From Arthrobacter sp. HMWF013 (GTDB lineage Bacteria > Actinomycetota > Actinomycetes > Actinomycetales > Micrococcaceae), in the NCBI RefSeq assembly GCF_003061105.1, contig NZ_QAIQ01000028.1, forward strand, positions 1 to 39,096: DNA of 39,096 nucleotides, written 5' to 3'. The notes beneath the pieces are model-generated. The model worked only from the letters and a program-made list of their open reading frames with translations. It was not told the origin of the DNA and ran no database searches. Of the stretch, positions 7,578 to 28,936 are shown in pieces (the first letter of the stretch is position 1; each line of letters begins with the position of its first letter). The position numbers were made by a program, and so were the translations under genes.

Positions 7578-7645
7578 GAGAAACCTTTCGAAGAAGCGTG
7601 AAGGAGATTTACTAAAAAAAGCACATTCTGTCGTAAGTTGCCTAT

Positions 7646-7660: not shown

Positions 7661-7713
7661 GCAGTAGGAACAAAGGAATCAGACAGTTCTGTCGGGATGA
7701 GCGGAGTGGTTGG

Positions 7714-9464: not shown

Positions 9465-10789
9465 AGCTGCTCCCCCTCTTTGCCGATTTCCGCCTCGGCG
9501 GAGTCCTTGTCCAACAGATCGAACCATTCCGCTGCGGTGGCTACGTCCTTGTCACCGCGGCCCGAGAGGTTCACGATCACGATCTTGTCCTGCGCGGCCC
9601 CGCCGATAGCGGCAGCTTCTTCAGCCATCCGCTGGCCAACCTTGATGGCACCGGCCAGCGCGTGCGCGGACTCGATGGCGGGGATGATGCCTTCGGTGCG
9701 GCAGAGAAGGCGGAAGGCTTCCATGGCCTCGCGGTCAGTGATCGGCTCGTAGCTGACGCGGCCGATGTCCGAGAGGTAGGAGTGCTCCGGGCCCACGCCG
9801 GGGTAGTCGAGGCCCGCGGAGATGGAGTGGGACTCGATGGTCTGGCCGTCGTCATCCTGCATGAGGTAGGAGCGGGCGCCATGCAGGACGCCCGGCTTGC
9901 CAAGCGTGATGGTGGCCGCGTGGCGGCCTGTTTCCATGCCGTCGCCGCCTGCTTCGAATCCGTAGATCTTCACGGACGGGTCGTCCAGGAAGCCGTGGAA
10001 GATGCCGATAGCGTTGGAGCCGCCGCCGATGCAGGCGCAAACGGCGTCCGGGAGCCGGCCTTCCTGGTCCAGGATCTGGGCCCGGGCTTCCTCACCGATC
10101 ACCTCGTGGAAGTAGCGGACCATCGCCGGGAACGGGTGGGCGCCCGCGGCCGTGCCCAACAGGTAGTGGGTGTTGTCCACGTTGGCCACCCAGTCGCGCA
10201 AGGCGTCATTGATGGCGTCCTTGAGGGTCTGCGAGCCGCTGGTCACCGGGATGACGGTGGCGCCCAGAAGCTCCATCCGGGCAACGTTCAGTGCCTGGCG
10301 GCGGCAGTCTTCGGCGCCCATGTACACCACGCACTCCAGGCCCATCAGGGCAGCGGCGGTGGCGCTGGCCACGCCGTGCTGGCCGGCGCCGGTCTCGGCA
10401 ATGACGCGGGTCTTGCCCATGCGCTTGGCAAGCAGCGCCTGGCCCAGGACGTTGTTGATCTTGTGGGAACCGGTGTGGTTCAGGTCCTCGCGCTTGAGGA
10501 AGATACGGACTCCCCCGGCGTGTGTTGAGAAGCGCTTGGCTTCGGTCAGCAGGGAGGGCCGGCCGGAGTAGTTTTTGTTCAGGTCCGCGACCTGGGCCCG
10601 GAATTCGGGATCGTCCTTGGCCTTGTCGAACGTCTCTTCAAGCTCGTCCACGGCCGCAATGAGGGACTCAGGCATCCAGCGCCCCCCGAAGCTGCCGAAG
10701 TACGGCCCCGGGGCGTGTTTCAGGGAGCCGCCCTGCAGGAATGCCTCCACGGCCTTGTTGTCAGCGTTTCCTGAGGGTGCGTCGGCCAT
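9461..10789 (-). CDS. trpB: tryptophan synthase beta subunit
   Basis: A 442-residue PLP enzyme that condenses indole with serine to make tryptophan, in complex with TrpA. The PLP lysine is in [13 protein letters not shown] (near residue 114). The Gly-Ala-Gly-Gln-His-Gly carboxylate loop and the phosphate-binding Gly-Gly-Gly-Ser-Asn-Ala follow. The N-terminal [14 protein letters not shown] is classic TrpB1. All key residues are present and length is normal. Upstream, where a full trpC would be expected, only a trpC fragment remains, so the promoter driving trpBA here is unknown. Confidence 0.97.
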
Positions 10790-11207: not shown

Positions 11208-11606
11208 TCAACGCCCCGGGATGACGGCGATGCCCTGAATCTCGATGAGGGCTTCCTTCTGCCACAGCCTTGTCACGCCGATGCCGGCCATGGCCGGGTA
11301 CTCCGATCCTGCCATTTCACGCCAGATTCGGCCGATTTCTCGCCCGTGGGCCATGTAGTCGTCGACGTCGGTGAGATAGATGGTGACATTGACCAGGTCT
11401 TCCGGCTGGCCCCCGGCTTCCCGGAGGGTGGTGAGGACGTTGGAGAACGCCTGCGAGAACTGTTCCACGATGCCGCCGGGAACAATCTTCATATTCCTGT
11501 CCAGGGCGGTTTGTCCGCCCAAGAAAACGGTGTTGCCGGCGAGCATGCCGTGCGCGAAGCCGGAGGGCTTGGGAAGCGATTCCGGGTTAATCGTTTTATG
11601 GCTCAT
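11208..11606 (-). CDS. RidA-family enamine/imine deaminase
   Basis: A 132-residue YjgF/YER057c/UK114 (RidA) protein. The family forms trimers that hydrolyse reactive enamines and imines to ketones and ammonia. Seen here are Gly-Gly-Gln-Thr-Ala-Leu-Asp, a helix with Gln-Ala-Phe-x-Asn-Val-Leu, Val-Asn-Val-Thr-Ile-Tyr-Leu-Thr-Asp-Val, the usually active-site Arg position in Val-Thr-Arg-Leu, and a C-terminal Ile-Glu-Ile-Gln-Gly-Ile-Ala-Val-Ile-Pro. The ATG at 11606 has AGGAGG six bases upstream, which excludes the longer frame. It is divergent from the anthranilate-CoA operon and shares its control region. Because 2-aminobenzoyl-CoA monooxygenase/reductase makes an enamine product, a dedicated deamination role is attractive, but this is an inference. 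Confidence 0.88.
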   Translation of the reverse strand: MSHKTINPESLPKPSGFAHGMLAGNTVFLGGQTALDRNMKIVPGGIVEQFSQAFSNVLTTLREAGGQPEDLVNVTIYLTDVDDYMAHGREIGRIWREMAGSEYPAMAGIGVTRLWQKEALIEIQGIAVIPGR

Positions 11607-11665
11607 GCTGTTCCTCCTGGTCGGCGGGGGACTGCGAAAACTTGAAAAAGGCTCTGTCCAGATCA

Positions 11666-11719
11666 ATTGTGTCGTGCTACCTTGAGTATATGTGACGGTC
11701 GTAAAAAAGTCGACACAAT
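11666..11719. promoter_or_regulatory. divergent ridA / catabolic operon control region with inverted repeat
   Basis: ATTGTGTCG at 11666-11674 is repeated inversely as CGACACAAT at 11711-11719, 36 bases apart and roughly symmetric about 11692. Between them lies TGACGGTCGTAA (11693-11704), whose first ten bases recur upstream of the second CoA ligase gene (21654-21663). On the minus strand TATACT (11690-11685) is a good -10 candidate for ridA. The arms and the shared decamer are candidate sites for the PaaX-type regulator of the cluster or another factor. Confidence 0.5.
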
Positions 11720-11739
11720 GACCTGAAGGGACAAATAGC

Positions 11740-12591
11740 ATGAAACTCGCCACGTTGCGGACGGCCGGAGAAGGAACGACGGCGGCCGTCGCCATGGGGG
11801 CCGATTCTTACGTAGCCCTTCCGGCCGCCGATGTCGGAGAGTTGCTCGCCAGGCCGGACTGGCGGGAAGCGGTGCACGAAGCCCGTACGGCTGCCGGTCA
11901 GACCGTCATTGCGGCCGTTGATGCAGACTTCGCCCCGCTTCTGCCGCGGGCGGGCAAGGTGATCTGCTGCGGCCTCAACTATGGGGACCACATTCAGGAG
12001 ATGGGCCGGGAACTGCCGCAATACCCTACGCTGTTCGCTAAGTACGCGGATACCCTGCTGGGAGCAACGGACACTATCGAGGTCCGTGGCAGTGACCGCG
12101 TCGACTGGGAGGCTGAACTGGCTGTCGTCGTCGGTTCTGAACTGTTCCGCGCTGACGAGGAAGAGGCCGCCGGGGCCATCGCGGGGTACACCGTGGCCAA
12201 CGACGTCTCCATGCGGGACTGGCAGAACCGGACGCTGCAGTGGTTCCAGGGCAAGGCGTTTGACGCCACAACACCCGTCGGTCCGGTCCTGGTAACCCCC
12301 GACGAGGCTGGCGAAACTTTCGATGTCTACTGCTATGTCAACGGAGACGTTGTGCAGAAGGGGAACACCGGCACACTGGTGTTCGGTCCCGCGAAGCTTC
12401 TGTCCTACATCTCCCAGTTCACCATGCTGCGCCCCGGCGACCTTGTCCTGACGGGAACCCCTGGGGGAGTGGGCATGGGAATGAACCCACCACGTTTCCT
12501 GGAGGACGGCGATGTCCTCACCACCGAAATCACCGGAATCGGGCGGCTCGAGAACGTCGTCCGCATCCACCCGGCATCAACCAAGGAGTGA
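11740..12591 (+). CDS. fumarylacetoacetate hydrolase family protein
   Basis: A 283-residue FAH-superfamily enzyme; members hydrolyse or decarboxylate beta-diketo or acylpyruvate intermediates in aromatic catabolism. The C-terminal FAH domain starts near residue 72 with Cys-Cys-Gly-Leu-Asn-Tyr. It carries the metal-binding Asp-Trp-Glu-Ala-Glu-Leu-Ala-Val-Val motif, Tyr-Thr-Val-Ala-Asn-Asp-Val-Ser-Met-Arg-Asp, and Gly-Thr-Pro-Gly-Gly-Val-Gly near the end. The ATG has AAGGGA eight bases upstream. It is the first gene of the plus-strand anthranilate operon and overlaps or abuts the cupin gene. Fumarylpyruvate hydrolase, acylpyruvase or a ring-opening C-C hydrolase are options; the exact substrate cannot be read from the sequence. 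Confidence 0.88.
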   Translation: MKLATLRTAGEGTTAAVAMGADSYVALPAADVGELLARPDWREAVHEARTAAGQTVIAAVDADFAPLLPRAGKVICCGLNYGDHIQEMGRELPQYPTLFAKYADTLLGATDTIEVRGSDRVDWEAELAVVVGSELFRADEEEAAGAIAGYTVANDVSMRDWQNRTLQWFQGKAFDATTPVGPVLVTPDEAGETFDVYCYVNGDVVQKGNTGTLVFGPAKLLSYISQFTMLRPGDLVLTGTPGGVGMGMNPPRFLEDGDVLTTEITGIGRLENVVRIHPASTKE

Positions 12592-12596
12592 CCACC

Positions 12597-13079
12597 GTGA
12601 ACCAGACTGTTACCGAATACCGCCTCGAAGGCGACAACTCGATCTACGCGCAAGCTGACGGCAAGGTAGTCCCCGTGGTCACCCGCGCCGGACACGAAGA
12701 CACCAACACCGCCCAGTCCGGTGACTGCATCCGCGTCTCGGGTGTCAGCATCCAGCACACACCCGCCACCAAGATCTGGTTCGGCCAGGTATCCAACACA
12801 CCCGGCTACCGCTCTCTCCCGCACCACCACGGCGAAGCCGAAACCGGCGGCTACGTGCTGCGCGGCCACGGACGCATCTACTTCGGCGAGAACTACAAGG
12901 AATTCCTTGACATGAAGGCCGGCGACTGGGTGTTCGTTCCGCCGTTCATGCCGCACGTGGAGGCAAACATGTCCGTGACCGAAGAGCTTGTCTGGCTCAC
13001 CGCCCGCACACCGGAAAACCTGGTGGTCAACCTCGAAGACGTCCCTGACGAAACGCTCGCCGACTACCGCAGGGCATAA
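12597..13079 (+). CDS. single-domain cupin protein
   Basis: A 160-residue cupin. Both metal-binding motifs are complete: Pro-His-His-His-Gly-Glu-Ala-Glu with a following Gly, and Pro-Pro-Phe-Met-Pro-His-Val-Glu-Ala-Asn. This supports a bound metal and possible dioxygenase, isomerase or hydrolase activity. The GTG at 12597 is preferred over the GTG at 12588 (GTGA overlap with the FAH gene) because AAGGAG lies eight bases before it. Similar small cupins occur in aromatic acid clusters without a settled role. It is far shorter than gentisate dioxygenase. Its place between an FAH hydrolase and a thioesterase suggests work on a ring-derived intermediate. Confidence 0.82.
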   Translation: MNQTVTEYRLEGDNSIYAQADGKVVPVVTRAGHEDTNTAQSGDCIRVSGVSIQHTPATKIWFGQVSNTPGYRSLPHHHGEAETGGYVLRGHGRIYFGENYKEFLDMKAGDWVFVPPFMPHVEANMSVTEELVWLTARTPENLVVNLEDVPDETLADYRRA

Positions 13080-13083
13080 ACCT

Positions 13084-13956
13084 ATGATTACCGGAACCCT
13101 GACCTCAGAAACCTTCCTGCGGGCTGTGGACCTCACGCCCGCGCCGGCGGAGGTCTACGACGAGGCCTACGAGGCCACCACCCAGTACGTGCCGTGGCCC
13201 AAGGCCTACGGCGGTGACATGGTGGCACAGGCCGCAGCAGCGATGATGCGCTCGGTCGATGATGACCGTTCCCTGCATTCGATGCACAGTTACTTCATGC
13301 GGCCCGTCGATATCGGCTCAAGCGTCCGCTACGAAGTGGAGCGGCTGCGTGACGGACGGGGGTACTCCACCCGGACCGTCCGCGGCTTCCAGAACGGCAA
13401 GGCTGTCTACGCCGCCATGGGCTCCTTCCAGGTACCCGAAGAGGGCCCGGACTTCCAGCCCGAGGCTCCGACCGTCGTCGACCCTGAATCGCTGCGCAGC
13501 GCAGCGGAAGTGCTGGAAGAGGCCGATGGCCCCGCTGCCGAATACTGGTCCGCCGGCCGCAGCTTCGACATGCGGCACGTTCCAGGGCCTGTCTACATCG
13601 AGCTGGAGGGCGGGCCGGTCCCACAGCAGGCCATCTGGGTCAAGGCCTTCGACAGCCTTCCCGACGACGCGGACCTGCACCGCTCCGCCCTTGCTTATGT
13701 GTGCGACTACACCATCCTGGAGCCGCTCCTGCGAGTTAACGGACTCCACTGGTCCAGCCCTGGACTTGCCACCGCCAGCCTTGACCACTCGATGTGGTTC
13801 CACCGTGACGGCCGGGTGGATGAATGGGTCCTTTACGCCCAGGAAGCCGTGTCCGGGCAGAGCAACAGGGGCCTTTCCATGGGCCGCTTCTTCGACCGGC
13901 AGGGAAGGCTCCTTGCCACCGTGGCGCAGGAGGGCATGATCCGTCCCGGCGCCTGA
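13084..13956 (+). CDS. TesB-type acyl-CoA thioesterase (double hotdog)
   Basis: A 290-residue protein of the acyl-CoA thioesterase II family, which hydrolyses acyl-CoA to acid and CoA. The first hotdog (to about residue 120) has Pro-Lys-Ala-Tyr-Gly-Gly-Asp-Met-Val-Ala-Gln-Ala and Ser-Met-His-Ser-Tyr-Phe-Met-Arg-Pro. The second has Leu-Asp-His-Ser-Met-Trp-Phe-His and the terminal Ala-x-Val-Ala-Gln-Glu-Gly-Met-Ile-Arg, all standard. The ATG at 13084 follows the cupin stop by four bases. In this operon it may release a free acid from a hydroxylated or reduced aromatic CoA ester, or rescue CoA from dead-end esters. Confidence 0.9.
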   Translation: MITGTLTSETFLRAVDLTPAPAEVYDEAYEATTQYVPWPKAYGGDMVAQAAAAMMRSVDDDRSLHSMHSYFMRPVDIGSSVRYEVERLRDGRGYSTRTVRGFQNGKAVYAAMGSFQVPEEGPDFQPEAPTVVDPESLRSAAEVLEEADGPAAEYWSAGRSFDMRHVPGPVYIELEGGPVPQQAIWVKAFDSLPDDADLHRSALAYVCDYTILEPLLRVNGLHWSSPGLATASLDHSMWFHRDGRVDEWVLYAQEAVSGQSNRGLSMGRFFDRQGRLLATVAQEGMIRPGA

Positions 13957-14008
13957 CCTCTTCCACCAACTCATCAGTTTCACTGACGCACCACTGAAAG
14001 GAACGGCC

Positions 14009-15667
14009 ATGCGCATGACGCCATCGGCCCACGTGGACACGTTCACCCGCGACCACCTGCCGCCCGCCACCACCTGGCCGGCGCTCGAATTCACCCTCCC
14101 CGAACTCCAGTACCCCGAACGGCTCAACGCCGCCGCCGCGCTCATCGACAATGCCGTCGCTGAGCACGGCGCGGACCGGCCCGCACTGCGGACCCCGGAC
14201 GGCACCGTCTGGACCTACGGCGAACTCCAAAAGCGCGCCAACCAGGTGGCACAGGTACTCACCGAAGACCTCGGCGTGGTGCCCGGCAACCGCGTGCTGC
14301 TCAGGGGCCCCAATAATTCGTGGATCGTTGCCGTCTGGCTGGGTGTGCTGAAAGCCGGGGCAGTAGCGGTAACCACCATGCCCATGCTGCGCTCTATCGA
14401 AGTCGCCTCCCTGATCCGGCTTACCAAGCCGGTCGTTGCCATCTCCGATCACCGCTTTATTGCCGAGCTCGCCCTGGCGGCAGGGAAGGACGTCGCCGTC
14501 CTGCCGTACGGAAGCGATGACGACGGCGACCTCACCGCGCGCTGCGCTGCCAAAAGCGGGCAGTTCACAGCTGTGGATACCGCAGCCGACGACGTCGCGC
14601 TCCTGGGTCCAACGTCGGGCACCACCGGCGTGCCGAAGGTGACCATGCATTTCCACCGTGACATCCTTGCCAACGCCGACACCTTTGCCAGGCATATCCT
14701 GCAACCCACCGCGGACGACGTCTTTGCTGGTTCACCGCCGCTTGCCTTCACGTTCGGACTGGGCGGACTCGTGGTCTTTCCCTTACGGTTCGGCGCATCA
14801 TCTCTGCTCACTGAAAGGGCCGGACCGGTCGAGCTCGCCGAACACGCGGCAGCCGCCGGGGCTACCGTCCTCTTCACTGCCCCCACTGCTTACCGCGCCA
14901 TTCTCAAGGAAGGGCGGGGCGACCTGCTCCGCGGCCTGCGGATTGCCGTTTCCGCAGGCGAGCATCTGTCCAGGGAGACGTGGGAGGCAGTGCGCGATGC
15001 AACCGGGCTGCGCCTGGTCAACGGCATCGGCTCCACCGAGTTGCTGCACGTTTTCATTTCCGCAGCGGGGGATGACATCCGACCCGGTACCACAGGCCGG
15101 GCGGTCCCCGGCTTCCGGGCCACCATCCTTGACGGGGAAGGCAACGAGGTCGGGCCAGGACAAAGCGGCCGTCTTGCAGTCATTGGTCCCACCGGTTGCC
15201 GCTATCTTGATGACGAACGCCAGGCGAATTATGTAATCGGCGGCTGGAACGTCACCGGTGACACCTTTGTCATGGACGAGGACGGCTACTTCACCTACCA
15301 GGCCAGGTCGGACAACATGATCGTGTCCTCCGGCTACAACATTGGCGCTCCCGAGGTGGAAGCGGCCATCGACCAGCATCCAGATGTGGTCGAAAACGCC
15401 GTGATTGGCCGGCCCGACCCCGAGCGGGGCAGCGTGGTGTGCGCCTTCGTGGTGCTTCGCGACGGCGTCATCGGCGACGCCGGCAAGCGGAAGGACATCC
15501 AGGACTTCGTCAAGGCGACCATAGCCCCCTACAAGTACCCGCGGGACATCCGCTTCGTCACCGAGCTGCCGCGCAATCCCAGCGGCAAGCTCCAGCACTT
15601 CAAACTCCGCGACTCCATCGCGGCCGAAACCCAAGAACTCACCCCCGCCTGCCAGAGCCAGGCGTGA
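14009..15667 (+). CDS. 2-aminobenzoate-CoA ligase (AbmG-like)
   Basis: A 552-residue ANL-superfamily ligase that activates anthranilate to 2-aminobenzoyl-CoA with ATP and CoA. The P-loop Pro-Thr-Ser-Gly-Thr-Thr-Gly-Val-Pro-Lys is near 199-208. The Ser-Thr-Glu adenine motif sits in Gly-Ile-Gly-Ser-Thr-Glu-Leu-Leu-His, and Val-Thr-Gly-Asp with Asp-Glu-Asp-Gly-Tyr-Phe follow. The catalytic lysine is in Asn-Pro-Ser-Gly-Lys-Leu-Gln near 526. The overall pattern, including the N-terminal Asp-Thr-Phe-x-Arg-Asp-x-Leu-Pro-Pro, fits 2-aminobenzoate-CoA ligases rather than generic fatty acyl ligases. AAAGGA lies six bases before the ATG. The next gene is the matching 2-aminobenzoyl-CoA oxidoreductase, which supports the substrate. 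A close paralogue lies at 19911-21584. Confidence 0.88.
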   Translation: MRMTPSAHVDTFTRDHLPPATTWPALEFTLPELQYPERLNAAAALIDNAVAEHGADRPALRTPDGTVWTYGELQKRANQVAQVLTEDLGVVPGNRVLLRGPNNSWIVAVWLGVLKAGAVAVTTMPMLRSIEVASLIRLTKPVVAISDHRFIAELALAAGKDVAVLPYGSDDDGDLTARCAAKSGQFTAVDTAADDVALLGPTSGTTGVPKVTMHFHRDILANADTFARHILQPTADDVFAGSPPLAFTFGLGGLVVFPLRFGASSLLTERAGPVELAEHAAAAGATVLFTAPTAYRAILKEGRGDLLRGLRIAVSAGEHLSRETWEAVRDATGLRLVNGIGSTELLHVFISAAGDDIRPGTTGRAVPGFRATILDGEGNEVGPGQSGRLAVIGPTGCRYLDDERQANYVIGGWNVTGDTFVMDEDGYFTYQARSDNMIVSSGYNIGAPEVEAAIDQHPDVVENAVIGRPDPERGSVVCAFVVLRDGVIGDAGKRKDIQDFVKATIAPYKYPRDIRFVTELPRNPSGKLQHFKLRDSIAAETQELTPACQSQA

Positions 15668-15681
15668 GAAGGAGCAGGACC

Positions 15682-18072
15682 ATGAAAATCGCAATTGTTG
15701 GAGGCGGCCCGGGGGGCCTGTACTTCGCGGCACTGATGAAGCAGCTGGACCCGTCGCACGAGATCACCCTCTGGGAACGGAACGCTGCGAGCGACACCTT
15801 CGGCTTCGGTGTCGTCTTTTCCGACGAAACCCTGGGCGGGATCGGCAACGCGGACCCCGTGGTGGCCGATTACATGAGCCGCCGGTTCGCCCGCTGGGCT
15901 GACATCGATATCCACTTCGGCGGGAAGATGATCAGCGTGGGCGGCCAGGGTTTCGCCGCCATGAGCCGCAAGGAACTGTTGGAGCTGCTCCAACGCCGCT
16001 GCGCGGAGCTCAACGTCGACCTGCGCTTCCAGACCATGGCTCCTGCCGTTGAAGAGCTCGAAGCCAATTACGATCTCGTGCTGGCCGCGGACGGCGTCAA
16101 CTCGCAGATCAGGGCAAAGTACGCCGAATTTTTCGGACCGGACCTCGATCCGCGCACCAACAAGTTCATGTGGCTCGGCACGGACCAGGTCTTCGAGGCC
16201 TTCAAGTTCTTCGTGAAGGAGACCGAGTGGGGTGTCATGCAGATCCACGGCTACCCGTACTCGGACGAGGGCTCCACGTTCATCGTTGAGATGCACGAGG
16301 ACGTGTGGCGCTCCGCCGGCTTCGACGAAACCGCGAACGAAGTGTTTCCGCCGGGTGTCTCTGACGAGAAAGCAATCGCCAAGATCCGTGAAATTTTCGC
16401 TGAGGAGCTGGAGGGCTACGAAGTCCTGGCCAACAACTCCAAGTGGCTGAACTTCAACACCGTCCGCAATCAGAGCTGGAGCAAGGGCAACGTTGTCCTC
16501 ATTGGGGACGCAGCCCACACGGCACACTTCTCCATCGGCTCCGGCACCAAGCTGGCCATGGAGGACTCGCTGGCCTTGGCCGCCTGCCTGCACGAACATA
16601 CTGACGTCGAATCTGCACTGGCCGCCTACGAGGCCGAGCGGCGTCCCGTGGTGGCCTCCACCCAGCGTGCTGCCCAGGCATCCCTTGAATGGTTCGAGCG
16701 GATCGGCCAGTACAAGGACCAGGATCCCACACAGTTCGCCTTCAACCTGCTGACCCGCAGCCGCCGCATCACTCAGGAAAATCTGCGCCTTCGCGACCCG
16801 GAATTTGCCGAGGCAGTGGAGCGGAATTTCGCCCAATCCCAAGGCCTGACACAGGTCGCGCCGGCCATGTTCCAGCCCTTCCGTATCGGCGGGCTGGAAC
16901 TGAAGAACCGCGTGGTGGTCTCTCCCATGGACATGTACTCCGCGGTGGACGGCGTTCCCGGGGACTTCCACAAAGTCCACCTCGGCTCCAAAGCCCTGGG
17001 CGGCGCAGGCCTGGTCATGACCGAAATGGTCTGTGTCTCGGCGGCAGGACGCATCACCCCCGGCTGCACCGGCCTGTATACAGACAACCAGCGGGACAGC
17101 TGGAAGGAGATCGTGGAGTTCGTCCACAATCAGTCCACCGCCAAAATCGGCGCCCAGATTGGCCACTCCGGCCGCAAGGGCTCCACCAAGCTCATGTGGG
17201 AGGGCATCGACGAACCACTGGAAACCGGCAACTGGCAGGCGGTGGGCCCCTCCGCCATCCCGTACGGTCCCCCCAATCAGATGCCCGCGGAGCTTGACCG
17301 CGCCGGCATGGACGCCATCCGCGAAGAGTTCGTCGCCGCGACTCTCCGGGCCGAACAGTCAGGTTTTGACCTCCTCGAGGTCCACGCTGCCCACGGCTAT
17401 CTGCTGTCTTCGTTCCTCTCGCCGGTTTCGAACCGGCGGACGGACGAGTACGGCGGCAGCCTGGAAAACCGGCTGCGGTTCCCGCTGGAAGTGTTCGACG
17501 CCGTCCGCGCGGCCTGGCCTGGCAACAAACCGGTGACGGTGCGCATCTCGGCAACGGACTGGATCGAGGGCGGTAACACCTCCGACGACTCCGTCGAGAT
17601 CGCCCGCGCCTTCGTTGCCCACGGCGCAGCGGGCCTGGATGTCTCTACCGGCCAGGTAGCCAAGGAGGAAAAGCCAGCTTACGGGCGCAGCTACCAGACG
17701 CCGTTCGCTGACCGGATCCGTCAGGAAGTGGCCGCCCCGGCAGGCATGGCAGTGATCGCCGTCGGCGCCATCTCCAGCTACGACGATGTAAATTCCATCC
17801 TCCTGGCCGGCCGGGCAGACCTCATCGCACTTGGCCGCACCCACCTTTACGACCCCCAGTGGACCCTGCACGCAGCCGCCGAGCAGGAGTACCAGGGCCC
17901 GGCCGCCGCATGGATCCCGCAGTTCCGCGCCGGCCGCCGCAAGCCGCCAAGCTCCCGCACCGACGCTGTACGCCCCCGCCTGTCCCTATTAAAGGAACCA
18001 GATGCTGAAACCACCAACCCACATCTTCGCTGGACCCCCGCTTCCTCCTCAACACCGGTTCTGGTGAAGTAG
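15682..18072 (+). CDS. 2-aminobenzoyl-CoA monooxygenase/reductase (anthraniloyl-CoA monooxygenase)
   Basis: A 796-residue two-domain flavoenzyme. Residues 1 to about 390 are a single-component FAD monooxygenase: Gly-Gly-Gly-Pro-Gly-Gly dinucleotide motif at 7-12 and Gly-Asp-Ala-Ala-His near 277. From Met396 an old-yellow-enzyme domain follows, with Gly-His-Ser-Gly-Arg-Lys-Gly around His495 and the His-Ala-Ala-His-Gly-Tyr-Leu and Tyr-Gly-Gly-Ser-x-x-Asn-Arg motifs. This fusion is characteristic of the enzyme described in Azoarcus evansii, which hydroxylates and then reduces 2-aminobenzoyl-CoA to a non-aromatic 2-amino-5-oxocyclohexene carboxyl-CoA. The ATG at 15682 is set by the GAAGGAG upstream and the flavin motif; the open frame extends back into the ligase gene. 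The last ~27 residues after Arg-Leu-Ser-Leu-Leu look unrelated to the fold. Confidence 0.92.
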   Translation: MKIAIVGGGPGGLYFAALMKQLDPSHEITLWERNAASDTFGFGVVFSDETLGGIGNADPVVADYMSRRFARWADIDIHFGGKMISVGGQGFAAMSRKELLELLQRRCAELNVDLRFQTMAPAVEELEANYDLVLAADGVNSQIRAKYAEFFGPDLDPRTNKFMWLGTDQVFEAFKFFVKETEWGVMQIHGYPYSDEGSTFIVEMHEDVWRSAGFDETANEVFPPGVSDEKAIAKIREIFAEELEGYEVLANNSKWLNFNTVRNQSWSKGNVVLIGDAAHTAHFSIGSGTKLAMEDSLALAACLHEHTDVESALAAYEAERRPVVASTQRAAQASLEWFERIGQYKDQDPTQFAFNLLTRSRRITQENLRLRDPEFAEAVERNFAQSQGLTQVAPAMFQPFRIGGLELKNRVVVSPMDMYSAVDGVPGDFHKVHLGSKALGGAGLVMTEMVCVSAAGRITPGCTGLYTDNQRDSWKEIVEFVHNQSTAKIGAQIGHSGRKGSTKLMWEGIDEPLETGNWQAVGPSAIPYGPPNQMPAELDRAGMDAIREEFVAATLRAEQSGFDLLEVHAAHGYLLSSFLSPVSNRRTDEYGGSLENRLRFPLEVFDAVRAAWPGNKPVTVRISATDWIEGGNTSDDSVEIARAFVAHGAAGLDVSTGQVAKEEKPAYGRSYQTPFADRIRQEVAAPAGMAVIAVGAISSYDDVNSILLAGRADLIALGRTHLYDPQWTLHAAAEQEYQGPAAAWIPQFRAGRRKPPSSRTDAVRPRLSLLKEPDAETTNPHLRWTPASSSTPVLVK

Positions 18073-18074
18073 CC

Positions 18075-19439
18075 ATGGCAAACGCACCCGCCACGGACTG
18101 GAAAGTCCCCACCCGCACCACCGGACTTGTCCTCTTCTGCTGCTGGCTGGCCATCCTGGCCGAAGGCTACGACGTCGGCGTCCTCGGCGCCGTCCTGCCC
18201 GCACTGGCCGAATACAAAGAATGGAACCTCAGCCCGCTCGCCCTCGGGGGACTGGGATCCTACGCCCTGGTAGGCATGCTGATTGGCGCGCTTTTCATCG
18301 GCACCCTCAGCGACGTCATCGGCCGCAAGAAAATGCTCCTGGCCGCTATGGCCATCTTCACGCTGACCCAGGCGGGCGCAGCGTGGGCACCGACTCCGGA
18401 ACTGTTCGGACTCTTCCGCCTGATCGGCGGCCTCGGTATGGGCGGCATCATCCCCGTGGCAGCAGCCCTGACCATCGAATACTCCGCACCGAACAAGCGC
18501 TCCTTCAACTACGGACTCATGTACTCCGGCTACTCACTCGGCATAGTGGCGGCCGCCCTGGCCGCACTGTTCGTCCTGCCCTTGGGCGGCTGGCGGGCGG
18601 TGATAGCAATCGGTGCCGCGCCGATCGTGCTGCTCCCCATCATCTGGAAGCTTCTTCCCGAATCGCTGGATTACCTCGAGACCAAGGGCCGCAGATCCGA
18701 GGCGAAAGCCCTGGCCGCCAAGCTCAACATAACCGATTACACGCCGGTGGCTGCGCCTGCACCGGCCACCTCGGGGGCAGCGGCAGAACCGTGGTGGAAA
18801 ACCATCACCACCATGTTCTCCGGAAAGTACCTGCGCTCCACCGTCTTCTTCTGGATCTCGCTGTTCCTCGGCCTGCTCCTCGTCTACGGCCTGAACACCT
18901 GGCTGCCGAGCATCATGAAGAAGGCCGGATACGATCTAGGCTCGTCGCTGACCTTCCTGCTGGTCTTCAGCCTTGCCTCAGCGATCGGCGGCCTCATCCT
19001 GGGACGCGCCGCGGATAAATACGGCAAGAAGCTCATCCTCGTGGTTTTCTACATCCTAGGCGGGCTGGGCATCATGCTGCTGGTCTTCCCCAACACCATG
19101 GTGGTCAACCTGCTGTTCGTCGCCTTCGCGGGCATCGGTTCCATCTCCACCTCCCTGGTCCTTACCGGCTACATCGCCGACTACTACCCCGCCAAGATCC
19201 GCGGCACCGCCACAGGATGGGCCTTGAGCTTCGCCCGCCTGGGCGCCATCTCCGGACCATTGATCGGCGGCTGGATCGCCGGCTCCAAACTGCCCTTTGA
19301 GGCTAACTTCGCAATTTTTGCCGGCATTGCAGTGCTGGCAGCCGCGGCAGTTGCCATGATTCCCAAGCCGCAGACGGAAGCTACTGTTGCTCCGTCAAGC
19401 GACACGGAAGAAGAAAACGCCGACATCGGCACACACTAG
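18075..19439 (+). CDS. MFS aromatic acid:H+ symporter (AAHS family)
   Basis: A 454-residue 12-helix major facilitator protein expected to import an aromatic acid with protons. Helix 1 carries Glu-Gly-Tyr-Asp (about 30-33), whose Asp is typical of AAHS transporters such as PcaK and BenK. Motif A, Gly-Thr-Leu-Ser-Asp-Val-Ile-Gly-Arg-Lys-Lys, is at 76-86. A second copy, Gly-Arg-Ala-Ala-Asp-Lys-Tyr-Gly-Lys-Lys, lies in the cytoplasmic loop of the C-terminal half. The ATG lies two bases after the flavoenzyme stop, so the genes are cotranscribed. Anthranilate is the likely substrate from context. Confidence 0.9.
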   Translation: MANAPATDWKVPTRTTGLVLFCCWLAILAEGYDVGVLGAVLPALAEYKEWNLSPLALGGLGSYALVGMLIGALFIGTLSDVIGRKKMLLAAMAIFTLTQAGAAWAPTPELFGLFRLIGGLGMGGIIPVAAALTIEYSAPNKRSFNYGLMYSGYSLGIVAAALAALFVLPLGGWRAVIAIGAAPIVLLPIIWKLLPESLDYLETKGRRSEAKALAAKLNITDYTPVAAPAPATSGAAAEPWWKTITTMFSGKYLRSTVFFWISLFLGLLLVYGLNTWLPSIMKKAGYDLGSSLTFLLVFSLASAIGGLILGRAADKYGKKLILVVFYILGGLGIMLLVFPNTMVVNLLFVAFAGIGSISTSLVLTGYIADYYPAKIRGTATGWALSFARLGAISGPLIGGWIAGSKLPFEANFAIFAGIAVLAAAAVAMIPKPQTEATVAPSSDTEEENADIGTH

Positions 19440-19446
19440 GAGCAGC

Positions 19447-19935
19447 ATGGACCACACTGAGACGTCGGGGAGCGCCGGGTTTCCCCAGGCAACCGTTGAG
19501 CGGACCGTGGAGTGGGTGGATACCGACGCTTCGGGCCACCAGCACAACTCGGCCATCCTGCGCTGGGTGGAGGCGGCAGAGGCAGAACTCTTCCGAAAAC
19601 TGCACCTGCCCGACTACTTCCCCAGCGCCCCCCGCGTCCAGCAGGTCATCAACTACAAGGCCAAGCTATGGTTCGGGCAGCGCGTAAGCGCAACCGTGAA
19701 GATCAACGTTCTCGGGCGGACCTCCCTGACCATGGGCTTCGAGGTCCGGGGCGAACCAATGGGCGCCTCCGACGAAGGCGTTCCGGACTACGGGTCTGTG
19801 GCGGCTTTCGGGACCGTCACCACGGCCCATGTTCCAGCCGGCGCCGCCAACGCACAGCCCTGGCCGGAGCACTTCGTCCGGGCTGTGCGGACCGGGTCCT
19901 CGAATGCAGCTCAGCCGACGCTAACGGCCACCTGA
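19447..19935 (+). CDS. hotdog-fold acyl-CoA thioesterase (4HBT/YbgC type)
   Basis: A 162-residue single-hotdog thioesterase. The active-site segment reads Glu-Trp-Val-Asp-Thr-Asp-Ala-Ser-Gly-His-Gln-His-Asn, the 4-hydroxybenzoyl-CoA thioesterase pattern, with the following Ile-Leu-Arg-Trp-Val-Glu helix also present. AGGAG overlaps the transporter stop codon and sits four bases before the ATG. It is the second thioesterase in the operon. It may hydrolyse an aromatic or alicyclic CoA ester of the pathway. Its 3' end overlaps the convergent second ligase gene by 25 bases. Confidence 0.86.
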   Translation: MDHTETSGSAGFPQATVERTVEWVDTDASGHQHNSAILRWVEAAEAELFRKLHLPDYFPSAPRVQQVINYKAKLWFGQRVSATVKINVLGRTSLTMGFEVRGEPMGASDEGVPDYGSVAAFGTVTTAHVPAGAANAQPWPEHFVRAVRTGSSNAAQPTLTAT

Positions 19936-21584
19936 GTGCGTTCTGTCGCAGCTGACTCCTGAACACGCTCCCGTTCGAGTTCGGCGCGCAACACAAAGTG
20001 CTGCAGTTTGCCGCTGGGGTTGCGCGGCACTGCGGAAACGAACCTCACGTCGCGGGGATACTTGTAGGGCGCGATGTTGGCCTTAACGAAATCCTGAATC
20101 TCTTTCCGTTTCGCTGCGCTGGCTTCCACTCCTTGGCGAAGAACAACAAACGCGCAGATGATGTTGCCGCGTTCAGAATCGGGACGCCCCACCACCGCGC
20201 TTTCCACCACCTCGGGATGCTGATTTATGGCCTCCTCCACCTCCGCTGCTCCGATGTTGTAGCCAGAGGAGATGATGAGGTCGTCCAAACGCGCCACGTA
20301 GTGGAAGTACCCGTCTTCGTCGCGCATGAACGTGTCTCCCGTCAGGTTCCAGCCGCCCTGTACGTAGTTGAGCTGCCGGTCGTCCTTCAGGTACCGGCAA
20401 CCGGTAGGCCCAATGACGGCAAGCCTGCCGGGCTGGTTGGCGGCTGCTTCGCTGCCGTCCTCGTCGAGGACCGTGGCCCGGAAACCGGGGACGGCAAGGC
20501 CCGTTGCCCCCGTGCGAATATCACCCTCGGCGGCGGAGATGAAGACGTGCAGCATCTCGGTAGACCCAATGCCGTTAATCAGACGCAACCCGGATGCCTC
20601 ATACACCGCCTCCCAGGTCTCCTTGGGCAGGTGCTCCCCGGCGGATATCGCCAAGCGCAGGCCCTTGAGTAACGCCGCTTCCCCTTCCTTCAGGATGGCC
20701 CGGTAGGCGGTGGGCGCGGTAAAGAGCACGGTAGCACCGGCGGCGGCGGACTGGCGGGCGAGTTCCACCGGGGTAGCCCGCTCGGTCAGAAGGGCGGAGG
20801 CGCCAAAGCGCAGTGGGAACACAACCAGTCCGCCGAGTCCGAACGTGAACGCCAACGGTGGTGAACCAGCGAAAACATCGGCGGCGGTAGGTTTGAGGAT
20901 GTGACGTGCGAAGGTGTCCGCGTTGGCCAGGATGTCCCGGTGGAAATGCATCGTGATCTTCGGGACCCCTGTGGTTCCGGAGGTCGGCCCTAACAGAGCC
21001 ACGTCATCGGCTGCGGTGGCCACGTCCTTGAATGTGCCACTTTTCTGGCCGCATTGGACTGTGAGATCACCCGCATCGTCGCTCCCATAGATAAGGACAG
21101 CAACATCCTCCAGTGCTTCGGCTACGCCATCTGCAAAGCGGTGGTCGGTAAGGGCTACCGTTGGTCGGGTCGCTGTGCAAATCGCCCTGAGTTCACTACT
21201 GCGCAGCACAGGCATAGTCGTCACGACGACGGCTCCTGCCTTCAGCACCCCCAGCCAGGCCGCCACAAGCCAAGGGTTGTTCGGACCGCGGAGGAGCACA
21301 CGGTTTCCCGGTACTACCCCCAAGTCCTCCGTCAGAACTTGGGCCACTTGATTCGCGCGCTGATGCAGCTGCCCGTAGCTCCACGATTCCCCATCGGGGG
21401 TATGCAGGGCCGGACGGTCGTTGCCGAAGGTACGTACTCCGTCGGTAATAAGGCTGGTCGCAGCATTTAACTGTTCCGGATACTGCAGCTCGGCAAGTGT
21501 GAACTCAAGGACAGGCCATTGGTTGGCGGGCGGGAGATTGTCACGGGTGAAGGTGTCCATGTGCGCTGAAGGGGATAACACCAT
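19911..21584 (-). CDS. second 2-aminobenzoate-CoA ligase
   Basis: A 557-residue ANL ligase closely similar along its whole length to the ligase at 14009-15667; the stretches compared by eye are roughly two-thirds to three-quarters identical. It has the same Pro-Thr-Ser-Gly-Thr-Thr-Gly-Val-Pro-Lys P-loop, Gly-Ser-Thr-Glu-Met-Leu-His, and Asn-Pro-Ser-Gly-Lys-Leu-Gln lysine motif. The ATG at 21584 is chosen because AAAGGA lies five bases upstream. It is transcribed away from the PaaX-type regulator gene, and its promoter region carries the TGACGGTCGT element also found before the FAH operon. It may be an isoenzyme with different affinity, or act on a substituted anthranilate or benzoate. Confidence 0.88.
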   Translation of the reverse strand: MVLSPSAHMDTFTRDNLPPANQWPVLEFTLAELQYPEQLNAATSLITDGVRTFGNDRPALHTPDGESWSYGQLHQRANQVAQVLTEDLGVVPGNRVLLRGPNNPWLVAAWLGVLKAGAVVVTTMPVLRSSELRAICTATRPTVALTDHRFADGVAEALEDVAVLIYGSDDAGDLTVQCGQKSGTFKDVATAADDVALLGPTSGTTGVPKITMHFHRDILANADTFARHILKPTAADVFAGSPPLAFTFGLGGLVVFPLRFGASALLTERATPVELARQSAAAGATVLFTAPTAYRAILKEGEAALLKGLRLAISAGEHLPKETWEAVYEASGLRLINGIGSTEMLHVFISAAEGDIRTGATGLAVPGFRATVLDEDGSEAAANQPGRLAVIGPTGCRYLKDDRQLNYVQGGWNLTGDTFMRDEDGYFHYVARLDDLIISSGYNIGAAEVEEAINQHPEVVESAVVGRPDSERGNIICAFVVLRQGVEASAAKRKEIQDFVKANIAPYKYPRDVRFVSAVPRNPSGKLQHFVLRAELERERVQESAATERTQVAVSVG

Positions 21585-21653
21585 TGCTTTCCTTTCAAGA
21601 GTGAGCAGAGCAGGGCGAGGTGATGCGAGAAGCATCAAAATATGGCGAAACTT

Positions 21654-21665
21654 TGACGGTCGTTA
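21654..21665. promoter_or_regulatory. shared operator candidate upstream of second ligase
   Basis: TGACGGTCGTTA matches TGACGGTCGTAA at 11693-11704 in 11 of 12 positions. Both copies lie about 35-90 bases upstream of cluster genes. CTTGAGTA is also shared, at 11681-11688 and 21740-21747. The nearby PaaX-type regulator is the natural candidate binder, but this is inferred. Confidence 0.45.
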
Positions 21666-21826
21666 CAGGACTGCGATATGCTTAGACTAATTCAACGAAA
21701 TTGCGGGACTGCGACTTTCTTGTTTCGCGCCCGTAAAGGCTTGAGTACGTACAGTCCGCCCCGCGGTGTGACTTTCGGCGCCTGTAGCCTATGAATGACA
21801 TTCGCGATATCAACACGAGGTGCCCT

Positions 21827-22684
21827 ATGGCCGATGCTGCTTCCACTCCCGACGTAGTCCCCATGCCCCGCCACCAACACCTGATTGTGACCATTTACGG
21901 GCTCTACGCCCGTGACCACGGCGGGGTTCTCGCCGTCTCAGACCTGATCAGCCTTCTGCGCGAACTGGGGGTGGAATCGGCTGGGGTACGTTCCTCCGTG
22001 TCCCGGCTCAAAAAGCGGGGAGTGTTGGTAAGCCTCAAGCGAGGGGGATCCGCTGCGTACAGGCTGGCGCCGGGACTGGAGGATGTTTTCAAAGCTGGAG
22101 ACGAACGAATCTTTTCTCCCAGAAGGGCACAAAAGACAGATGGCTGGATTCTTACCTCCTTCTCCGTGCCGGAATCGCAGCGGCATCTGCGCCACAAGCT
22201 TCGCGCCATCCTTACCCGCATGGGATGTGGTCAGGTATCCGCGGGGCTTTGGATTGCGCCTGGGCATTTGGCCGCGGAAGTTGCCCTCCAGTTGCAACGT
22301 GCAGGACTGACTGAATACGCGGATTTGTTCACTGGTGCCTATCTGGGAGAACCGGAGGTTTCGGCAAAAGTAGGGCAGTGGTGGGATCTGGCTTCCCTCG
22401 AAGCCCTTTACACCGACTTCCTTGACAACCACGGAAACCTGCTCGAGCGATGGACTGCCACCCCGCGGAAGGCGGGGGAAAGCACCGCTACGCTCCGGCA
22501 GGCCTTCGTCGACTACGTGACCACAGTGACGCAGTGGCGGCGCTTGCCCTACATGGACCCGGGCCTGCCCGTGGTCTACCTTCCGGATGACTGGGCAGGG
22601 CTGGCGGCCGAGAAGTTGTTTGCCGACTTACACGCGCAGTTAGCCCCCATGGCGCGCCAATATGCCCACTCCGTCCTAGGCTAA
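21827..22684 (+). CDS. PaaX-family transcriptional regulator
   Basis: A 285-residue PaaX-like repressor. The N-terminal helix-turn-helix covers about residues 18-70 (Thr-Ile-Tyr-Gly-Leu-Tyr-Ala-Arg, then Gly-Val-Arg-Ser-Ser-Val-Ser-Arg-Leu-Lys-Lys-Arg-Gly). The central ferredoxin-like domain has Trp-Ile-Leu-Thr-Ser-Phe-Ser-Val-Pro-Glu followed by Gly-x-Gly-Gln-Val-Ser-Ala-Gly-Leu-Trp-Ile-Ala-Pro. The C-terminal PaaX domain ends with Arg-Arg-Leu-Pro-Tyr-Met-Asp-Pro-Gly-Leu-Pro. GAGG six bases before the ATG at 21827 favours it over the ATG at 21791. Classic PaaX responds to phenylacetyl-CoA, so here an aromatic CoA thioester such as 2-aminobenzoyl-CoA is a plausible inducer. It probably controls the divergent ligase and the FAH operon. 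Confidence 0.88.
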   Translation: MADAASTPDVVPMPRHQHLIVTIYGLYARDHGGVLAVSDLISLLRELGVESAGVRSSVSRLKKRGVLVSLKRGGSAAYRLAPGLEDVFKAGDERIFSPRRAQKTDGWILTSFSVPESQRHLRHKLRAILTRMGCGQVSAGLWIAPGHLAAEVALQLQRAGLTEYADLFTGAYLGEPEVSAKVGQWWDLASLEALYTDFLDNHGNLLERWTATPRKAGESTATLRQAFVDYVTTVTQWRRLPYMDPGLPVVYLPDDWAGLAAEKLFADLHAQLAPMARQYAHSVLG

Positions 22685-22688
22685 GTTG

Positions 22689-23972
22689 TTAGTCGCCGAA
22701 AAGGTGCACCCCGTTCCACTTTTTCCCCGGAAGCGATGGGCTGGAGAATCGCTGGTCGCCGGCCGTTGAGATGATCCTCCCATCGAGCATTGCCCACGTC
22801 ACCTTGTAGTACGAGTCCGCGTCTACGAGCGGGTCGCCTTCCATGGCCACCAGATCCGCCAGGAGCCCAGGCTCAATGCGTCCGACCTGGTCGTCCCCAA
22901 TGGCCGCTGCCGCATGCGTGGTTGCAGCGGCCAGGACCTCAGGTAGCGGGATGCCTGCCCTTGCCATCACAACGAGGCCGTCGGCGTAAGTTTCCGGTGT
23001 TGTGCTTGGCAGCCCCATATCCGTTCCAGCAGCGAGGGGGATTCCGGAATCGAACAGAAGCTTCAGGTTCGCCAGCGCTATATCCAACGGCGCCCACGGC
23101 ACTCCCTTGCTAAGCCAGTAATTGTTCGTCGTGGGCACCACGGGCACACGCTTGTCACCGATGGCCCGGGCAAGGTCCAGGTCTACAACGGCGATTGGGT
23201 CTGCTGCGAAACTTGCGTGCTCGATAGTGTCCACGCCAGCCAGAAATGCTATTTCTATTGCGTCCCTGCCTTGGCTGTGGGCGGTAACCGGAAGGCCAAA
23301 CCGGTGGGCCTCGGAAACGATCAGGTTCATCTCTTCCGCCGAGAAAAGCGGGGAATACGGGGTCTCCTTTTCGGACCGATAAGGGTTAGTAAACCCTCCC
23401 GAGGCCATGACCTTAATCCAGTCCGAACCTTGCTTGACGTGTTGGCGTACTGCCCGCCGAAGAGAAACTGGATCGTCGCACTCCATGCCGAAGGAATTAC
23501 CGTGACCACCCGTTATGGTGATGACTTCATTGGCAGTCTGGATACGGCATCCCTGTACCGTGCCGTTAGCGATTGCATCCCTGGCCACGCCCACAACATT
23601 TCCGGGGCCGCCGAGGTCGCGCACAGACGTCACGCCTACCCGAAGGAATCTCTGCGCATTGCTGATGACTTGCATCAACTGCATCTCACGCGTCTGATGG
23701 TGCGGTAGCGGGCCGTTGCCCTCCGGCCACTTCCATAGATGCACGTGTGAATCAATGAATCCGGCTGTCAGCGTGCGGTTGCCCAAAGCCACGTGGGGTT
23801 GATCAAAATCTGCTGCCGGCCCAACGGCCAGGATGCGCCCGGCCCTTACTGCCACCACTCCCTTATGCAGCACAGGCTGGTTGGGAGCGGTGATGATACG
23901 GTCTGCAGCGATAAGGATTGTTGGCATCTCGGTTTCGGACGATGCCTGAAGATGGAGCTGTTCAACGGTCAT
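22689..23972 (-). CDS. amidohydrolase-superfamily enzyme (HutI-related), second of pair
   Basis: A 427-residue metal-dependent amidohydrolase. All metal-ligand positions are visible: Gly-Phe-Ile-Asp-Ser-His-Val-His, Trp-Ile-Lys-Val-Met-Ala-Ser-Gly-Gly (carboxylated Lys), Val-Thr-Ala-His-Ser-Gln-Gly, Ile-Glu-His-Ala-Ser and Ala-Gly-Thr-Asp. This arrangement matches the Xaa-Pro/Xaa-Arg dipeptidase and imidazolonepropionase-related group. It overlaps the preceding amidohydrolase gene by ATGA and ends the minus-strand ABC-importer operon. No signal peptide is seen, so it acts in the cytosol on the imported compound. The amide or peptide cleaved is unknown. Confidence 0.85.
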   Translation of the reverse strand: MTVEQLHLQASSETEMPTILIAADRIITAPNQPVLHKGVVAVRAGRILAVGPAADFDQPHVALGNRTLTAGFIDSHVHLWKWPEGNGPLPHHQTREMQLMQVISNAQRFLRVGVTSVRDLGGPGNVVGVARDAIANGTVQGCRIQTANEVITITGGHGNSFGMECDDPVSLRRAVRQHVKQGSDWIKVMASGGFTNPYRSEKETPYSPLFSAEEMNLIVSEAHRFGLPVTAHSQGRDAIEIAFLAGVDTIEHASFAADPIAVVDLDLARAIGDKRVPVVPTTNNYWLSKGVPWAPLDIALANLKLLFDSGIPLAAGTDMGLPSTTPETYADGLVVMARAGIPLPEVLAAATTHAAAAIGDDQVGRIEPGLLADLVAMEGDPLVDADSYYKVTWAMLDGRIISTAGDQRFSSPSLPGKKWNGVHLFGD

Positions 23973-28917: not shown

Positions 28918-28936
28918 GACTGGACTTCCGCTTCCG

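Follow-up and report, generated by a model that had tools for sequence, protein, structure and literature searches.

A cupin, a fumarylacetoacetate hydrolase-family protein and thioesterases in place of beta-oxidation genes in an actinobacterial anthraniloyl-CoA cluster

Positions 11208 to 22684 of contig NZ_QAIQ01000028.1 of Arthrobacter sp. HMWF013 carry a gene cluster, apparently devoted to the degradation of anthranilate through its coenzyme A (CoA) ester, in which a cupin, a protein of the fumarylacetoacetate hydrolase (FAH) superfamily and thioesterases very probably replace beta-oxidation in consuming the same flavoenzyme product. The window, that is, the whole stretch of DNA analysed, comprises bases 1 to 39096 of this contig, in a genome of 4.6 Mb and 731 contigs. 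The entry chemistry resembles that of the aerobic 2-aminobenzoyl-CoA pathway of Azoarcus evansii, with a CoA ligase and a fusion of an FAD monooxygenase and an old yellow enzyme (OYE) domain. According to a review relating the work of Schuhle 2001 (PMC4539516), the Azoarcus pathway is completed by beta-oxidation, whereas here the corresponding genes were not found and a cupin, an FAH protein and a TesB-type thioesterase stand instead. What becomes of the ring once it is reduced in this pathway is poorly defined, and the curators of GapMind, knowing too little of the anthraniloyl-CoA monooxygenase/reductase route, left it out of tryptophan degradation (PMC9007349). What is new here is the mutual exclusivity of the cupin and beta-oxidation gene sets, which suggests that the lower half of the pathway exists in two alternative versions. 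No description of a cupin/FAH route for anthranilate was found in the open-access papers searched, although a mention in subscription papers on MeqR2 or on the pAL1 sequence is possible.

The core of the cluster is one tight plus-strand operon (11740-19935). Its first gene encodes the FAH-superfamily hydrolase, a proposed acylpyruvase (11740-12591; 283 amino acids; PF01557, 1.3e-65), whose stop at 12591 is overlapped by the start, at 12588, of a single-domain cupin proposed as the ring-cleaving dioxygenase (12588-13079; 163 amino acids; PF07883, 2.7e-8, also PF00190). These are followed by a TesB-type acyl-CoA thioesterase (13084-13956, with 13084 taken as the in-frame start; 290 amino acids; PF02551/PF20789/PF13622), whose best solved relatives are acyl-CoA thioesterases II, by an anthranilate-type CoA ligase, ligase 1 (14009-15667; 552 amino acids; PF00501, AMP-binding), and by the fusion of 2-aminobenzoyl-CoA monooxygenase/reductase type, hereafter ABM (15682-18072; 796 amino acids), in which PF01494 is joined at full length to PF00724. 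The operon ends, after a transporter gene, with a hotdog thioesterase (19447-19935; 162 amino acids; PF13279, 4.4e-7; PF03061, 4.7e-6). A RidA-family protein (11208-11606, minus strand; 132 amino acids; PF01042, 1.4e-21) is encoded divergently upstream. All the genes named in a first-pass annotation of this DNA (ligase, monooxygenase/OYE fusion, FAH, metal-binding cupin and RidA) are thus present by domain hits, as are the two unrelated thioesterases that it had noted. Its remark that beta-oxidation genes are absent from the cluster also stands: neither an enoyl-CoA hydratase nor a hydroxyacyl-CoA dehydrogenase nor a thiolase was found among the 30 open reading frames of the window scanned with Pfam, and a weak 3HCDH_N match, below its cut-off, falls on an alanine dehydrogenase (6462-7799). 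The enoyl-CoA hydratase, hydroxyacyl-CoA dehydrogenase and acyl-CoA dehydrogenase genes that mark an Azoarcus-type cluster were thus not found beside ABM among the frames scanned.

The cluster is not a chance grouping, since its genes recur jointly in 78 loci, and every one of the 40 family genomes with ABM, the window's among them, has the ABM-cupin pair. The 78 loci, which derive from the best 80 of 262 cupin relatives in genome contigs, are close kin chosen by their similarity to the window cupin (at least 80% identity). Within the DNA fetched, ABM, ligase and TesB are encoded in 78/78, RidA in 77, FAH in 75 and a PaaX-type gene in 72. Relatives of the enoyl-CoA hydratase, hydroxyacyl-CoA dehydrogenase and acyl-CoA dehydrogenase of Paracoccus were found in none of them (tblastn, E 1e-6; thiolases were not sought). 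In a sample of 197 Micrococcaceae genomes, the window's included, ABM (threshold E 1e-200) is present in 40, and a cupin orthologue (at least 79% identity) in those same 40 and in 0 of the 157 without ABM. This orthologue lies 2.6-3.8 kb upstream of ABM, on the same strand, in 41/41 ABM copies. The gene set, which the first-pass annotation considered unusual, is so in comparison with the Azoarcus type and is the normal one within the family. Looser cupin paralogues (53%) occur in three genomes of this sample (G458, G482 and, additionally, G529).

Exclusivity extends to more distant loci. Among 396 genomes of the phylum, 42, the window's included, carry ABM (threshold E 1e-150), and 40 of the 41 non-window loci were fetched (G267 was left out). 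Cupin, FAH and TesB occur together at two of these 40, relatives of enoyl-CoA hydratase and/or acyl-CoA dehydrogenase at 31, and neither gene set at seven, two of which are on contigs shorter than 7 kb; a window-type cupin together with beta-oxidation relatives was found at 0/40. By the same test, the 18 plasmid ABM loci chosen for reading comprise 11 of cupin type, seven of beta-oxidation type and none with both. Some annotations near these loci deserve mention. A cupin inside the beta-oxidation-type cluster of Ruegeria (L193) aligns weakly with that of the window (E 0.002) and is not counted as window-type, and an annotated cupin at L189 is not matched by the window cupin at E 1e-6. At L187 an annotated acyl-CoA dehydrogenase family gene, unmatched by the Paracoccus query, lies 4.3 kb past ABM, and L181, which has neither gene set, has a 36% FAH relative.

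Several observations weigh against the scheme proposed below. At L173, a locus of beta-oxidation type, a 52% FAH relative lies about 7 kb from ABM, and eight phylum-sample genomes with a non-cupin-type ABM (G086, G107, G161, G181, G246, G267, G308 and G386) carry, on another contig, a distant cupin relative (33-47%), not counted here as window-type. FAH is missing at three of the 78 loci (L068, L070 and L073) and at the megaplasmid locus of S. cattleyicolor (L186). The genomes of the former three hold only FAH relatives of 49-58% identity, and weaker ones, elsewhere, and none was found in the S. cattleyicolor plasmid record. No clear replacement appeared among ten genes scanned in L073 and L070 (L068 was outside the scan). 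In view of its absence from some cupin-type loci, FAH may be replaceable. Upstream of the L073 cluster are genes for an alpha/beta hydrolase and another cupin; on the Arthrobacter ERGS1:01 plasmid (L003) the FAH reading frame is interrupted, and ABM matches occur on two plasmid records of that strain.

The phylogeny of ABM provides a further argument. The tree comprises 58 proteins (23 of cupin type and 35 of beta-oxidation type), a selection that takes in 11 of the 78 close loci and does not include L171, L177, L191, L003 and L006. The label needs three changes on this tree, each possible in either direction. Three is also the number that the starred branches make unavoidable, and a topology uniting all cupin-type proteins in one clade is rejected (p-AU 0.0008); the count is the same with or without L159, which was dropped from the final tree as only ABM was found there. 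The nearest relatives of the window ABM among the rows compared are from Pseudarthrobacter and Arthrobacter, and the actinobacterial cupin-type clade (19 rows) has as its sister group a clade of beta-oxidation type that includes a Streptomyces (L188) and ten genomes of one family. Cupin-type loci also occur amid beta-oxidation-type neighbours in Rhizobium (two) and in Rhodobacterales (two); in these four alphaproteobacterial loci ABM is 47-50% and the cupin 72-75% identical to that of the window. They also carry two short-chain dehydrogenases that the scheme proposed below leaves unexplained, which is another point against it. The simplest reading is that the two gene sets act on one and the same product of the flavoenzyme. 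The first-pass suggestion is thus borne out in part: a lower pathway that differs from the beta-oxidation type, with cupin, FAH and thioesterase in its place, is supported by these changes and by two sets that were never found together at the ABM loci read. The release from CoA and the opening of the ring by the cupin or FAH, which it also suggested, stay at the level of a proposal, and the oxidative mechanism set out below was not part of it. If, on the contrary, the cupin and FAH were metabolite-repair or regulatory proteins, with the lower pathway encoded elsewhere, the lack of a characterised enzyme family closely matching the cupin would be understandable. The strict joint presence of cupin and ABM, the exclusivity with beta-oxidation and the three label changes make this explanation very unlikely.

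The evidence points to anthranilate rather than salicylate as the substrate. From RidA to ABM, the genes and their order are the same as on plasmid pAL1 of Arthrobacter sp. Rue61a, a plasmid that confers the conversion of quinaldine to anthranilate. Ligase 1 is 80% identical to the pAL1 ligase adjoining ABM, which is taken, by its position, to be the plasmid-borne one of two Rue61a ligases reported as active anthranilate-CoA ligases in E. coli (PMC3534580). In the same account, a plasmid-free mutant kept growth on anthranilate, so a chromosomal gene set must exist in Rue61a as well. CoA esters of acids with the formulas C7H7NO3 and C7H8O4 are described there as coming exclusively from anthranilate-grown cells, and its authors suggested cyclohexanedione-carboxyl-CoA for the C7H8O4 ester (PMC3534580). 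The pathway of that paper, in the parts available, ends at 2-amino-5-oxocyclohexenecarboxyl-CoA or cyclohexanedione-carboxyl-CoA, while here a lower half is proposed; the words "cupin" and "fumarylacetoacetate" do not occur in its main text. Gene context leads to the same substrate. Sister clusters adjoin genes for a quinolone-signal dioxygenase (L005), for a kynureninase (L003), and for a tryptophan 2,3-dioxygenase and a kynureninase-like protein (L187). In the window itself, the best solved relatives of the product of 34808-35599 are isatin hydrolases (5nmp, 5nnb, 5nna and 4j0n). Isatin opens to isatinate, which is a precursor of anthranilate. This gene overlaps one for a thiamine-diphosphate enzyme (35596-37272), and the pair (34808-37272) perhaps processes isatinate and feeds anthranilate into the pathway. 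An isatin hydrolase relative in L195 and a cyclase-family gene in L004 lie likewise near the anthranilate cluster, both beside indolepyruvate oxidoreductase genes. It is important to note that the NCBI family NF006101, whose cut-off of 1078 bits the window fusion passes with 1227 (model positions 1-764 of 768), is named salicylyl-CoA 5-hydroxylase, which would favour salicylate, or another ortho-substituted benzoate, as the true substrate. This is most improbable given the sister clusters and the isatin hydrolase relative just described, the conserved partnership with RidA and the anthraniloyl-CoA formed by the Rue61a ligases; moreover, Rue61a is reported to grow on anthranilate and not on salicylate, gentisate or 5-hydroxyanthranilate (PMC3534580).

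The features of ABM and RidA suggest where the two routes part. The window ABM has the flavin motifs GGGPGG and GD, the latter found in 22 of 23 cupin-type rows, with one gap in the remaining row. The catalytic residues Y419, H568, H571 and Y573 of the OYE domain are kept in 23/23 aligned cupin-type ABMs; a reduced ring is therefore to be expected from these enzymes, and that of the window would convert anthraniloyl-CoA into 2-amino-5-oxocyclohex-1-ene-1-carbonyl-CoA. As a separate observation, between 4 and 13 of the 36 rows then labelled beta-oxidation-type do not show the expected residue at one or another of these positions in the alignment; unless misalignment accounts for this, some of those proteins may be hydroxylases without the reductase step. 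The RidA-family protein is common to cupin-type and beta-oxidation-type clusters. The arginine that follows PA in the 2-iminoacid deaminase archetype is absent from the window protein, which has Met106 where the five solved relatives compared read PAR. At this position the actinobacterial cupin-type copies (n=87) have Met in 77, Leu in 9 and Thr in 1; Met is also found in 4/4 alphaproteobacterial cupin-type copies and in 25 of 33 beta-oxidation-type ones, the other eight being likewise without Arg. In RidA this arginine holds the carboxylate of the substrate. Since a CoA thioester offers no carboxylate and the RidA-like protein lacks the arginine in both cluster types, deamination of the enamine thioester plausibly precedes the fork.

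From these elements a complete route can be proposed, whose steps from RidA onwards, and their order, are deduced from gene content and chemistry. The ligase would activate anthranilate to anthraniloyl-CoA, and the fusion would form the 2-amino-5-oxocyclohex-1-ene-1-carbonyl-CoA known from Azoarcus. The RidA-like protein would then hydrolyse the enamine to 2,5-dioxocyclohexane-1-carbonyl-CoA, whose acid is C7H8O4 and which fits the C7H8O4-CoA detected in Rue61a. After release of free 2,5-dioxocyclohexanecarboxylate by a thioesterase, the cupin, acting as a dioxygenase with Fe(II) or a similar metal, would cut the C1-C2 bond with O2, giving 2,4-dioxopimelate (succinylpyruvate, C7H8O6). This bond of the cyclic beta-keto acid is the one that gentisate 1,2-dioxygenase cuts in its aromatic analogue. 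Such a cleavage would yield an acylpyruvate, so a role of the FAH protein as an acylpyruvase fits, hydrolysing succinylpyruvate to succinate and pyruvate. The atoms balance (C7H8O4 + O2 = C7H8O6, which with H2O gives succinate and pyruvate), and the scheme would have no missing step and no need of beta-oxidation. The proposed cupin cleavage and FAH-type acylpyruvate hydrolysis recall the gentisate pathway, from which the scheme differs in its alicyclic CoA-derived ring, in a single-domain cupin outside the gentisate dioxygenase models and in requiring no isomerase. Acetylacetone dioxygenase Dke1 is a cupin with a 3-His site that oxidatively cleaves a beta-dicarbonyl compound; the window cupin, with a 3-His-1-Glu site, is likened to it by description only. 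Taken as a whole, the oxidative route to succinate and pyruvate has about an even chance of being right.

The cupin has motif 1 (HxHxxxE) and the histidine of motif 2, as metal-binding cupins do, and its ligands H79, H81, E85 and H123 are invariant in 95/95 relatives and in 41/41 diverse rows. Residues H84, E87, E124, E126, D155, Q162 and K172 of FAH are kept in 88/88 sequences (fragments below 70% of the length were excluded). In FAHD1, which cleaves acylpyruvates and decarboxylates oxaloacetate, a His30-Glu33 dyad, a Glu71/Glu73/Asp102 metal site, Gln109 and Lys123 are described (PMC7116474, PMC8398924). The conserved FAH residues fit these sites by order and offset from the start of the alignment (query 73 = FAHD1 19), with dyad, metal site and lysine in matching order; the closest solved sequence to the window FAH (6j57) is, however, a protein of predicted function, and no curated FAH equivalog model passed its cut-off.

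The oxidative route also has to face some difficulties. No characterised family that includes the cupin was found, and its profile has oxalate decarboxylases as best solved relatives, with quercetinase, 3-hydroxyanthranilate dioxygenase and gentisate dioxygenase lower. Its 3-His-1-Glu arrangement (HxHxxxE...H) is that of oxalate decarboxylase, unlike the three histidines of gentisate and 5-nitrosalicylate dioxygenases (PMC10306065). The structural models of the cupin are poor, with a mean confidence score (pLDDT) of 48 from 40 close relatives and of 57 when one distant viral-contig relative is added, and they match the general cupin fold only (Foldseek, VIA-align). Salicylate dioxygenase reaches Z 8.9 against the low-confidence model amid many cupins of similar score; quercetinase, sugar ketoisomerase and 3-hydroxyanthranilate dioxygenase score alike, so no function was read from it. 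The active-site residues of FAH cannot tell a hydrolase from a decarboxylase or a tautomerase. Finally, a free beta-keto acid is prone to decarboxylation.

In a rival account the ring is opened by hydrolysis: the FAH protein would perform a retro-Claisen cleavage of 2,5-dioxocyclohexanecarbonyl-CoA to 4-oxopimelyl-CoA without O2, the cupin would be an isomerase or accessory protein, and beta-oxidation encoded elsewhere would finish the degradation. FAH-superfamily enzymes do cleave C-C bonds of dicarbonyls (PMC8398924), and enoyl-CoA hydratase relatives, 23-31% identical to that of Paracoccus, exist elsewhere in the genome. However, this explanation gives no necessary role to the cupin, the partner of 41/41 family ABM copies, makes the thioesterase wasteful and calls for beta-oxidation genes that the Paracoccus queries did not find at the 78 loci, while FAH is precisely the part that is occasionally missing. 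Hydrolysis would moreover lead to 4-oxopimelate, which no enzyme of the cluster would evidently process further. Such an opening is rather unlikely, and oxidative cleavage by the cupin to succinylpyruvate seems the better account of the gene set.

An aromatic route has also been considered, in which the flavoenzyme would only hydroxylate, a thioesterase would free 5-hydroxyanthranilate or gentisate, and a gentisate-kind cupin followed by a maleylpyruvate-type FAH would complete the pathway. In its favour, use of both 5-hydroxyanthranilate and gentisate is reported for Nocardia opaca (Cain 1968, cited through PMC4539516), 5-hydroxyanthraniloyl-CoA arises under limiting NADH, and the C7H7NO3-CoA was seen in Rue61a (PMC3534580). 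It is opposed by the OYE residues mentioned above, kept in all 23 rows, and by the C7H8O4-CoA, which is two hydrogens richer than gentisyl-CoA. RidA would be left without an evident role, since an aromatic 2-amine would be turned into an amide by 1,2-cleavage. The window cupin matches no curated gentisate or 5-aminosalicylate dioxygenase model at E<=0.01, and among 41 relatives one matches gentisate_1_2 (7.9e-5) and three the aminosalicylate model (best 8.4e-4). The failure of Rue61a to grow on 5-hydroxyanthranilate or gentisate points the same way, although the strain cometabolically converted 5-hydroxyanthranilate (PMC3534580) and uptake may be limiting. Altogether the aromatic route is improbable, and the reduced ring of the oxidative scheme is retained here.

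The cupin and FAH are also found outside the ABM pathway. On an Alloyangia plasmid (L194) an 81% cupin lies about 3 kb from FAH, with short-chain dehydrogenases and no ABM. A Pacificitalea plasmid (L196), likewise without ABM, carries an 80% cupin together with an ene-reductase gene and a gene of the acyl-CoA dehydrogenase family; an FAH relative (33%) lies on the opposite strand, at a distance of about 4 kb. The order on an Arthrobacter plasmid without ABM (L200) is dehydrogenase-FAH-cupin, the cupin being 43% identical. At three further loci (L212-L214) a cupin paralogue of 52-53% has dehydrogenase relatives nearby, joined at two of the loci by relatives of acyl-CoA dehydrogenase, and no FAH was found in the DNA read. 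These contexts are suggestive of a chemistry directed at alicyclic ketones rather than at CoA or nitrogen, and the cupin relatives without ABM are possibly a general alicyclic ring-opening unit. The broadest statement of the proposal is that the cluster represents a fifth aerobic logic for anthranilate, in which the ring is partially reduced as a CoA ester, a RidA-like protein without the arginine removes the amino group, a new family of cupin dioxygenases cleaves the non-aromatic cyclic beta-keto acid and an acylpyruvase yields succinate and pyruvate, with the cupin/FAH unit serving other alicyclic substrates in proteobacteria; it is offered tentatively, being slightly more open to doubt than to acceptance.

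Two cluster members that the first-pass annotation left unmentioned form a second divergent pair and are relevant to regulation. One is CoA ligase 2 (19911-21638, minus strand; PF00501, 1.4e-65; start uncertain, 21638 or 21584), a paralogue 74% identical to ligase 1. The other is a PaaX-type regulator (21791-22684, plus strand; 297 amino acids; PF07848/PF20803/PF08223), 68% identical to the product of the PaaX-type gene after ABM on pAL1. A search, with one mismatch, for the palindrome TGACGNNCGTcA, which we take to be the MeqR2 operator of pAL1, gave three matches in the window. Two are in the divergent promoters, TGACGGTCGTAA between RidA and FAH (11693-11704) and TGACGGTCGTTA between ligase 2 and PaaX (21654-21665), and one is inside a ligase gene; for the whole window three matches are not above chance (23/100 shuffles). 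On pAL1 the corresponding region yields four matches, of which two fall between the equivalent genes. A like site (with the last-but-one or second position free) occurs in the stretch between RidA and the next gene at 53 of 74 loci, against 0.73 expected if sites were evenly spread (L046, L056, L065 and L112 were left out of this count); this is conservation among related loci and not 74 trials. At L068, L070 and L073, where FAH is missing, the operator-like site is found in the stretch from RidA to the cupin. With its PaaX domains and, under the consensus assumed here, operator-like sites in its own and its target promoters, the regulator has the attributes of a PaaX/MeqR2-type repressor. MeqR2 itself binds anthraniloyl-CoA.

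The remaining gene of the operon encodes a transporter of the major facilitator superfamily, similar to aromatic-acid/H+ symporters (18075-19439, plus strand; TIGR00895, 3.2e-88, under its cut-off). Just ahead of the cluster are overlapping trpA and trpB (8619-10789, minus strand), both passing curated cut-offs. Between the cluster and the isatin hydrolase gene, a minus-strand run (22689-31891) encodes two amidohydrolases, an oligopeptide-type ABC transporter (two ATPases, two permeases and a binding protein) and a class V aminotransferase. A further gene (32508-33212) encodes a 234-residue protein in which a helix-turn-helix is fused to an OsmC-like peroxiredoxin domain.

If the proposed route is true, the combined products of six genes would convert anthranilate into succinate, pyruvate and ammonia with every step accounted for, by a way from the ring to succinate and pyruvate shorter than that of fatty-acid-type enzymes. 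It would add to the known catalysts a cupin dioxygenase whose substrate is a non-aromatic ring, and a RidA-like deaminase that lacks the arginine and acts on a CoA thioester. In addition, it would help to explain the use by common soil actinobacteria of several compounds that break down to anthranilate, namely tryptophan, indole/isatin, quinaldine and the Pseudomonas quinolone signal.

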